Shown: positions 15,008 to 17,250 of the stretch, one piece after another
Position numbering within the stretch: position 1 is the first letter of the stretch
Layout of the letters: each line of letters starts with the position of its first letter
Virus record (IMG/VR): IMGVR_UViG_3300008217_000124
Location: 1-20,653 of that record
DNA length: 20,653 nt
Strand: one strand, 5' to 3'
Source: a virus
Program-made: the position numbers and the translations under genes
The notes under the pieces: model-generated
The model's database searches: none
What the model saw: only the letters and a program-made list of their open reading frames with translations
What the model was told of the DNA's origin: nothing

Positions 15008-15661
15008 TCAATGCTGTTCGTAGCTTATATTTTTTTCTGATTTATTCCAACATAAACGGCAGTCACCACATTTATGTGTGCCAGAAGTTATAGCTGGACA
15101 ATTTTTTCCAATCCATTTTTTTTCTTTTGTATGGACTGTGCTAGTGTATTTCCAAAATGTTGGTGGCTTTCCATTTACTTTGACTGCACTTAATCTTATT
15201 GTAAGATTATCTGGAATATAAACTTCTCCATATTTTTTTATAAAAGCATCAACTATTTTGTATTCTCTGGTAGGCAACCAATGTTTTATATCTATTGTTC
15301 TCCATGCTATGTCACAAATTTTTTTAAGCATTTCAACACTTTGCAAATCTCCAGAATCAAACCATCTGAAATATCTTTTTTCTTTTGGCAACCTTTTATA
15401 TTTTAATTTAAGCATATGAGTCATGCCACTTACATAATATTCATTGCTCATAACCTTTAATCTTTTTCTGTGTGAAAACTTAACAGGCTTAAAGGAATAA
15501 AAACCTTTCATAGCGTAACAGTTATAACAGGTTGTTCCTTTTATTTTTGCTAGCTTTGAACCTACCTTACAATCAAACGCAGAAATACCCCAACTAAATG
15601 CAGGCATTTTTGATACATTACCTAGCTTGTATCCTAGCTTTTCAAGATTTTTAATTTTCAT
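15008..15661 (-). CDS. Gp88-like phage protein
   Basis: This 217-aa protein has a cysteine/aromatic pattern that I associate with the Gp88 phage family. It shows TTCYNCYAMKG (C45, C48), then FSHRKRL, FRWFDSGDLQS, HWLPTREY, LTIRLS and a C-terminal cysteine cluster (C188, C198, C201, C204 in CGDCRLCW). The paired Cys groups suggest a metal or Fe-S site. GDLQS and LPTRE are likely active or binding loops. The biochemical role is not known to me. The start is two bases after the previous stop. The length fits a complete single-domain protein. Confidence 0.6.
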   Translation of the reverse strand: MKIKNLEKLGYKLGNVSKMPAFSWGISAFDCKVGSKLAKIKGTTCYNCYAMKGFYSFKPVKFSHRKRLKVMSNEYYVSGMTHMLKLKYKRLPKEKRYFRWFDSGDLQSVEMLKKICDIAWRTIDIKHWLPTREYKIVDAFIKKYGEVYIPDNLTIRLSAVKVNGKPPTFWKYTSTVHTKEKKWIGKNCPAITSGTHKCGDCRLCWNKSEKNISYEQH

Positions 15662-16265: not shown

Positions 16266-16769
16266 TTAATTTCCTACCTTATAAAACCACTCTGGTTTTT
16301 TTCTTCCCTTCTTCCACTCAGCAAAATATTTCTTTTCATGTACATAAAATTCTCTGTATGCAGTTACATAATCTTTATCTCTGAATCTATCTGGCATACA
16401 TTGAGGAGGGTCTGTAAATTCTTTGTCTGGAAATTTATCCAACCAATCTATGTGTTTTATAAAACGATTAGTTATGTGAGAAGATTTATGAATTTTTGGA
16501 TAGCCCAAACTATATCTAAGAGTAAATTCTTCACCAATCCAATCAGCCAAATCAAGTGTCCACCTAAAATTTTCTACTGATTCTCCAACCCACTTAGTCA
16601 TAGGGTGATGAGGGTACGCTATTTTATATAAGTCCTCACACTCTCCTACATTTTTTTGATATGCTGTAGATAACATTTGAGTTGTTTCCAATAACATTTT
16701 TGGTACATGCTTATCACAAAGATATTGTGCTGAAAGCATTGAAGTTTTATCTAAAAAAAATATATTCAT
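16266..16769 (-). CDS. Conserved phage protein, pyrimidine-dimer-glycosylase-like by pattern only
   Basis: This 167-aa protein opens MNIFFLDKTSMLSAQYLCDK, then HVPKMLLETTQMLSTAY, HHPMTKWVGESVENFRW and a conserved end with CMPDRFRD and AYREFYVHEKKYFAEWK. I recall this arrangement from a family common in phages, sometimes annotated as related to pyrimidine dimer DNA glycosylases; that link is weak and the family is better called uncharacterised. The MPD and W-x-K motifs near the C-terminus are the strongest marks. AAGGAG precedes ATG 16769, which overlaps the stop of the basic 42-aa gene as ATGA. Confidence 0.6.
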   Translation of the reverse strand: MNIFFLDKTSMLSAQYLCDKHVPKMLLETTQMLSTAYQKNVGECEDLYKIAYPHHPMTKWVGESVENFRWTLDLADWIGEEFTLRYSLGYPKIHKSSHITNRFIKHIDWLDKFPDKEFTDPPQCMPDRFRDKDYVTAYREFYVHEKKYFAEWKKGRKKPEWFYKVGN

Positions 16770-16894
16770 TTTTTTCTTCTCCTTTTCTTTTTTCTTCTAT
16801 TTTTTCTTCGTCTGTTTTTTCTTTTTCTTGAACCAATCTTTCTTCTTCCTTTACCATAAGCGTGAAGCCCAGTTCCTCTTCTTCCATGACCCAT
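16766..16894 (-). CDS. Protamine-like highly basic peptide, 42 aa
   Basis: ATG 16894 follows a good GGGAGGT ribosome binding site that sits in the stop region of the preceding gene. The peptide begins MGHGRRGTGLHAYGKGRRK and continues as an almost unbroken Arg/Lys tract. It has 24 Arg or Lys in 42 residues, plus 2 His and no acidic residues. Its TGA overlaps the next ATG (16766-16769). Such composition indicates binding to DNA or RNA; candidates are DNA compaction, a ribosome- or RNA-binding role, or a virion nucleic acid binding peptide. The codons are A/G-rich, so a low-complexity non-coding stretch is the alternative, but the ribosome binding site and overlaps argue for a gene. Confidence 0.6.
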   Translation of the reverse strand: MGHGRRGTGLHAYGKGRRKIGSRKRKNRRRKNRRKKKRRRKK

Positions 16895-16899
16895 GTTAT

Positions 16900-17250
16900 T
16901 TACCTCCCTATGCCTAGTGCCTTCAATAAATCTTCAAATTTAATTGTAGATATAAAATATTCCTCTCCATCAGCTTTTATTGAATTAATTGTATCATATT
17001 TTATATTACGAAATCCTCTTTTAGCCAGATCGAAAGCTATAAGATATTGGTCTGGGTTAGTTGTTCTTTTACCGCCAGCTAGCTTTTTTTTAGTTCCATC
17101 TTTTTCTTTCCATTTTTGAACTCCAAGTCTAAATTCACCTTTTCTTGGAACATCAAATACTCCAGTCTTTGGATTCTTCTTTTTCCACTCAATATGAAAT
17201 ATCTTTTTACCTATAAGCTCTCGTACTTTCTCTTGATATGCTTTTGTCAT
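16900..17250 (-). CDS. WYL_2/SH3-like beta-barrel phage protein
   Basis: This 116-aa protein begins MTKAYQEKVRELIGKKIFHI and contains FRLGVQKW, then YLIAFDLAKRGFRNIKYD and TINSIKADGEEY. The order of R-x-GV, a V/A-FD-x2-K-x-G-F/Y-R-x-I and a final I-x-SI-x-A-x-G matches small phage proteins predicted to have an SH3-like beta-barrel (WYL_2/DUF2693 type). The function of these is unsettled. It is the first gene of the long minus-strand block, behind the divergent promoter region, and may be expressed early. A CTATAATTT-type AT-rich leader precedes ATG 17250. Confidence 0.6.
   Translation of the reverse strand: MTKAYQEKVRELIGKKIFHIEWKKKNPKTGVFDVPRKGEFRLGVQKWKEKDGTKKKLAGGKRTTNPDQYLIAFDLAKRGFRNIKYDTINSIKADGEEYFISTIKFEDLLKALGIGR

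Follow-up and report, generated by a model that had tools for sequence, protein, structure and literature searches.

What does a phage gain from a 42-residue peptide in which 24 residues are arginine or lysine and none is acidic? Such a peptide is encoded in the window, the whole 20,653-base virus record analysed here, which holds phage replication and endolysin genes. Several functions are conceivable for it, and they are weighed here from the conservation of the gene, its relatives and its surroundings.

A basic gene in the replication block

The microprotein, MGHGRRGTGLHAYGKGRRKIGSRKRKNRRRKNRRKKKRRRKK, starts with ATG and contains 14 Arg, 10 Lys and 2 His but no Asp or Glu (57% Arg/Lys); the total of 24 Arg/Lys and the lack of acidic residues are as the preliminary description had them. 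The gene and the features around it are as follows.

16266..16769, minus strand: downstream 167-aa gene, Pyr_excise-like / phrog_624 (Pfam and PHROGs matches)
16766..16769, minus strand: ATGA, in which the microprotein gene stops and the 167-aa ORF begins (sequence)
16766..16894, minus strand: basic microprotein gene, bS22-like candidate, 42 aa (ORF, composition, family, codon-level selection)
16805..16852, minus strand: conserved core, residues 15-30, KGRRKIGSRKRKNRRR (two family alignments; common to the planctomycete family)
16900..17250, minus strand: upstream 116-aa gene of unknown function, in the same block (Pfam and PHROGs searches)
16903..16908, minus strand: GGGAGG Shine-Dalgarno motif, 8 nt ahead of the microprotein ATG and inside the final codons of the 116-aa gene (sequence)

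The good ribosome binding site noticed earlier is thus present, and of the stop/start overlaps described on both sides, the one on the 3′ side holds; on the 5′ side the stop of the upstream ORF (16900-16902) is separated from the microprotein ATG by a 5-nt gap. The downstream gene matches PF03013 at 25.2 bits (cut-off 23) and phrog_624 at E 9.5e-46, and the upstream gene matches no Pfam family and has weak PHROG matches (best E 0.0005). The microprotein gene lies outside any tRNA operon, in a minus-strand block that encodes DNA polymerase, a DnaB-like helicase, primase, a Cas4-type nuclease and a RusA-like resolvase, a placement that fits the intracellular role suggested previously. At 15008-15661 on the minus strand the window also encodes a member of the Gene product 88 family (PF17338, E 1.3e-20), a family with no assigned function.

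Evidence for a translated gene

The same DNA is open in an overlapping acidic frame (16747-16887, 46 aa), so that preservation of the basic frame mattered. Under one alternative the basic ORF would be a by-product of A/G-rich DNA, with the slightly longer acidic frame, or neither frame, being the real gene. Three sets of observations make this extremely improbable. The window holds a single ORF that is 40 aa or longer, contains 50% or more Lys/Arg and lacks Asp/Glu, and no such ORF arose in 300 order-1 or in 300 order-2 Markov genomes. Across 16 core codons compared between the window and nine distinct peptides, 263 codon pairs were identical, 379 differed synonymously and 78 were nonsynonymous, which indicates that this gene within a phage genome is under purifying selection and that distant homologues keep the basic frame. 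The nine peptides came from loci fetched through a neighbouring gene, with L015 and L025 dropped as duplicates, and were first found by composition, although all fit the core pattern too. Among 119 distinct family genes, the +1 frame is open in 42 and the +2 frame in none. As to translation itself, a Shine-Dalgarno-like motif stands ahead of the start codon in 88 of the 133 family genes counted, whereas a control stretch lying farther upstream has one in 6 of 133; this count left out 3 of 136 genes that lie near the end of their locus and used start codons picked by script. The earlier impression of a translated gene is therefore supported by a conserved frame, mostly synonymous change and Shine-Dalgarno-like motifs.

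A family of phage peptides

The window peptide belongs to a family of phage peptides of ~27-43 aa that share the core KGRRK[IV]GSxKR, and the conservation of the basic tract in related phages, which had been put forward as a check, is borne out. At least 110 distinct peptides from at least 136 loci are included; the 136 loci, among them the window's twin, are non-redundant by flanking DNA and are not independent viruses. The downstream gene retrieved the best 80 of >599 matching stretches, and a composition scan of those 80 loci gave 11 with a 37-49-aa ORF sharing the window core KGRRK[IV]GSxKR[KR]NRRR; pattern scans of viral contigs then enlarged the family. An unrelated 29-aa basic ORF in L011, L039, L040 and L041 also came out of the composition scan. 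Among the matches listed, the family takes forms such as MPHPHKNRPRKGRRKIGSTKRKARRLKGKKGK, MSKADLKRKGHKGRRKVGSKKRRNRRRIRLGLKIRRK and MAARTGLKKYGKGRRKIGSKKRKNRAMNRKH, the last of which is 61% identical to the window peptide and among the nearest to it in the alignment, and the source contigs reach 173 kb. The Gly and Ser of the core are invariant in the family alignment, partly imposed by the search pattern, and are invariant also in the 10 sequences of the codon analysis.

A phrog_624-type gene directly adjoins the peptide gene in seven of the 125 loci for which the peptide was the sole query. In L112 it lies downstream, the order seen in the window, with 2 nt between the peptide gene and the ATG of the phrog_624-type gene; in L083, L084, L087, L089, L090 and L104, several of which represent related viruses, it lies upstream. 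The search with the upstream 116-aa gene found one locus, on a contig that shares 99.92% identity with the window across 7,554 bases and is uninformative on selection.

Searches of family libraries gave no convincing match. With 42 family members as queries, neither Pfam nor NCBIfam returned a family at E up to 1, and in PHROGs three families were each hit weakly by one member (best E 0.08). The family is short enough to have escaped these libraries. With the peptide and three relatives as queries, tblastn against annotated phages gave no match; the low-complexity filter probably masks such queries. No cultured carrier came to light among the few records scanned: the core pattern and the family profile were absent from all eight named ones, of which seven were picked by a GIY-YIG-like neighbour (470 matched) and one by DNA similarity (6 matched), the profile search being run without a positive control. 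This GIY-YIG-like neighbour (L225 3001-3417, L226 2920-3414, L229 3926-4411) matches phage genes annotated as "NAD synthetase" in many records, a label that looks like a propagated misannotation.

Some members of the family lie among tRNA genes. Fourteen of the 136 peptide genes are within 200 nt of a tRNA, whereas the random expectation for these loci, from 200 draws, averages 4.7 and never exceeds 10. Any tRNA at all is held by 36 of the 136 loci, and most members have none in their locus. Of 12 of the closest loci in which the layout was inspected, six (L132, L147, L161, L171, L205 and L212) place the peptide between tRNA-Leu(UAA) and tRNA-Gly(UCC) on one strand. In L113 (1891-12945, minus strand) a family member is embedded among 27 tRNA genes on one strand. 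A literature search that mostly lacked subscription papers found nothing on viral tRNAs accompanied by small proteins.

A homologue in Planctomycetota

One pattern scan of a species-genome collection returned 25 matches, of which 22 are titled Planctomycetota or one of its genera or families and two, with the same type of peptide, are titled only "bacterium." The remaining match is a 3.3-kb contig of a beta-proteobacterial metagenome-assembled genome (MAG), in which tRNA-Leu(UAA) is followed by a phage-type peptide (L251 2377-2572); this contig is probably phage DNA that binning assigned to the MAG, and among 299 genomes of the phylum of this MAG, it alone matched the phage profile.

The planctomycete form, exemplified by MGTKKTGKGRRKIGSKKRRMRAKIRHRKK, is related to the phage family (z 13.7 against the phage profile, reached by 0 of 250 column shuffles). 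It is single-copy in 49 of 392 Planctomycetota genomes, and in 32 of 195 in another search. No neighbourhood is conserved around it, with no neighbour cluster common to more than 8 of the 55 loci from the planctomycete search, and the 14 neighbour clusters shown were not phage-like by eye. The planctomycete homologue thus looks like a resident gene.

Comparison with small ribosomal proteins

Of the very small, strongly basic proteins that have a stable role in cells, the best fit is the group formed by bS22, mS38 and eL41, which is described in parts of PMC10618245, PMC10085706, PMC7005279 and PMC6582356 as a single small peptide occupying the h27/h44/h45 pocket. The bS22 of Bacteroidota and Borrelia, mS38 and eL41 resemble the window peptide in size class and in being 55-65% basic (the range given for bS22s in a section of PMC10085706), and by prediction the window peptide may share with them an extended N-terminus followed by a helix. 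Members of the group measure ~25-37 aa, and the window peptide, slightly longer than the described bS22s at 42 aa, falls with them in size and basicity. It also shares with the Bacteroidota/Borrelia bS22s the register K-[IVM]-x-[STK]-x-K-R. The core itself differs, however, being KGRRKIGS in the family as against HKVATHKR or KISTHKR in bS22.

In the AlphaFold2 prediction for the window peptide, the N-terminus is extended and residues 23-41 form a helix (mean pLDDT 78.3, pTM 0.45). This is the plan given for archaeal eL41 in a portion of PMC7005279 and may correspond to that of the group as a whole, in which an N-terminal extended peptide precedes one, often bent, helix; no bend was resolved in the prediction. 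Foldseek found no match to the predicted model, as may be expected of a single helix.

Sequence statistics were obtained against nine bS22 sequences, three from the PDB (7jil, 9i5v and 8fmw, of the Bacteroidota/Borrelia type) and six planctomycete matches. The latter were found with a profile built from the three: of 199 Planctomycetota genomes searched with it, 6 (L289-L294) have a bS22 of this type, for example PCGRKRRRRKIAKHKRDKRRRADRHKKKLR. Against these nine, the window peptide scored z 4.4 (p 0.0027, composition-preserving shuffles), and a hand count on the alignment with PCGRKRRRRKIAKHKRDKRRRADRHKKKLR gave 15 identities in 23 aligned residues. Six other family members gave p 0.005 (the planctomycete L286), 0.04, 0.07, 0.07, 0.12 and 0.19. 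The phage profile against the bS22 profile gave z 2.8, a value reached by 4 of 250 shuffles, or by 3 of 200 with the three bS22s alone, and the comparison of the planctomycete profile with bS22 was not significant (60 of 250 and 112 of 200). No similarity was seen between the actinobacterial bS22 of M. smegmatis and the window peptide (p 0.54) or between actinobacterial bS22 and the phage profile (123 of 250). For scale, actinobacterial bS22, a protein of the same ribosomal site, did no better than 48 of 250 against this bS22 profile. The statistics therefore favour a relationship between the window peptide and bS22 but cannot settle it for the family, for which the support from sequence is marginal.

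Yeast eL41 gave p 0.012 with the window peptide, and bTHX and bL34 were rejected as relatives (p 0.68 and 0.67). Position-specific tests against bS22, bTHX, bL34, eL41, bL36 and uL3 were mostly nonsignificant; Borrelia bS22 gave p 0.03-0.06 in three settings and 0.046-0.52 in others, and the rows obtained with a basic background, in which partial overlaps won, were not relied on. PDB sequence searches with the window peptide and L286 found no match. In PDB profile searches the planctomycete profile had none and the phage profile had one, at E 9.1, to an archaeal uL3 loop, which was taken as a chance match.

PF08213 (COX24_C) and NF047430 (ribo_bS22) match neither the window peptide nor the family, and in five planctomycete genomes PF08213 gave one weak match (E 0.10), to a sequence different from the peptide. 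Since the bS22 of F. johnsoniae, known from a ribosome structure, also fails both models, a match to them is not truly defining for bS22. The bS22 type was detected in 7 of 392 Planctomycetota genomes (one weak, with an in-frame stop), compared with 49 for the planctomycete family, and never together with it; co-occurrence was expected in only ~0.9, so that the absence of overlap is not evidence. The family differs from bS22 in being phage-encoded, in being missed by both models and in lacking similarity to actinobacterial bS22. Because homology is not settled and ribosome binding is a prediction, the window peptide is not filed here as a member of bS22.

A proposed ribosomal role and its alternatives

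We consider it reasonably probable that the window peptide is a phage-encoded ribosomal protein that attaches to the small subunit and acts in the manner of bS22, mS38 and eL41. The binding, its site, an effect on translation and a host without such a protein are inferred. During infection, the extended N-terminal half of the peptide would enter the h27/h44/h45 pocket of 16S rRNA and the basic C-terminal helix would reach toward the subunit interface, and host ribosomes might thereby be stabilized or retuned in favour of phage messages. Passages of PMC6582356 propose that bS22 acts on the mRNA channel close to the anti-Shine-Dalgarno exit, and mS38 on selective initiation. More tentatively, we suggest that well over 100 uncultivated phages, their genomes ranging from small and podovirus-like to contigs of >170 kb, carry an overlooked bS22-type microprotein, sometimes in tRNA operons, which would be inserted into the ribosomes of hosts lacking the protein, beneath the mRNA channel, and would steer initiation to phage messages; the same peptide would be an unannotated ribosomal protein of part of Planctomycetota.

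The other readings share the starting point of a short, basic peptide. Protamine-like DNA-condensing peptides have a very high Arg/Lys content, and the 57% Arg/Lys of the window peptide, its lack of acidic residues and the position of its gene in the replication block would all suit a general nucleic acid-condensing or RNA-coating peptide, protamine-like or an RNA chaperone, that acts in replication or is packaged with the genome. In such peptides, however, the Arg/Lys tracts have no conserved motif, in contrast to the conserved core of the family with its invariant Gly and Ser. The strict motif, which is under codon-level selection, the single-copy homologue in part of Planctomycetota and the placement of some copies in tRNA operons are none of them predicted by a protamine, so that the DNA compaction or neutralization of genome charge envisaged in the preliminary description is not supported, and the condensing peptide as a whole seems unlikely. 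Binding of RNA by the window peptide, which was proposed at the same time, is plausible. A short arginine-rich peptide with a predicted helix, encoded beside DNA-metabolism genes, could also be an RNA-binding regulator of transcription or mRNA, for which lambda N is the comparison; the solitary chromosomal homologue in Planctomycetota stands against this, and we regard such a regulator as very unlikely.

The remaining alternative concerns the same pocket. A ribosome-targeted inhibitor would occupy it to shut down host translation, and this is a serious rival because, according to the pertinent section of PMC10085706, 80 uM of C. acnes bS22 lowers cell-free translation in an E. coli system by 80%; in addition, ribosomes with viral bS21 kept ~5% activity in vitro, as given in part of PMC6375957. 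A plain inhibitor would not, however, be predicted to be kept as a single-copy gene by 49 of 392 Planctomycetota genomes, and we judge inhibition quite unlikely compared with a peptide that works as a ribosomal protein.

Phage ribosomal proteins and viral bS22-type genes

A known parallel is phage bS21, a small, basic protein of the small-subunit type found in aquatic uncultivated phages (portions of PMC6375957 and PMC9723584). The present family is shorter than bS21 and unnamed. Phage bS21 has a host counterpart, for which it presumably substitutes; the present family could add a protein that many hosts lack, and the added protein would sit in the heart of the small subunit. The peptide family is widespread among phages; it most resembles the small ribosomal protein bS22 and may serve to alter host ribosomes, not to pack phage DNA. 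For part of Planctomycetota, a ribosomal protein that is as yet unannotated is predicted, and a peptide of 42 residues would make phage control of the ribosome testable.

The term "bS22" is absent from the main text of the phage ribosomal protein paper (PMC6375957) and of the phage bS21 paper (PMC9723584). In a literature search with subscription papers mostly outside its reach, no report of a phage bS22 was apparent, no paper on bS22 in Planctomycetota was found and the string KNRPRKGRRKIGS did not occur. A query with E. coli bS21 had no match in the 136 peptide loci.

Clear bS22-type genes of the Bacteroidota/Borrelia kind were found on two viral contigs, on the larger by a bS22 profile search and on the smaller by the degenerate pattern described below.

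L302, 9139-9182, plus strand: bS22-type gene on a viral contig of 297,623 bases
L301, 8839-8882, minus strand: bS22-type gene on a viral contig of 18,050 bases

The gene on the larger contig encodes MSGAKKKKPSKISTHKRKKQSRKNRHKTKK, which suggests that this contig is a jumbo phage with its own bS22. The degenerate pattern K[IV]x[ST]xKRKxxxRKNR, drawn from both families so that its matches are partly by construction, occurs in only four stretches of the viral collection: the two bS22-type genes on the 297,623-base and 18-kb contigs, the family member MPHPHKNRPRSGRRKIGSKKRKARARKNRK and the window's twin. As there were no other matches, the pattern shared by the two families is not common by chance.
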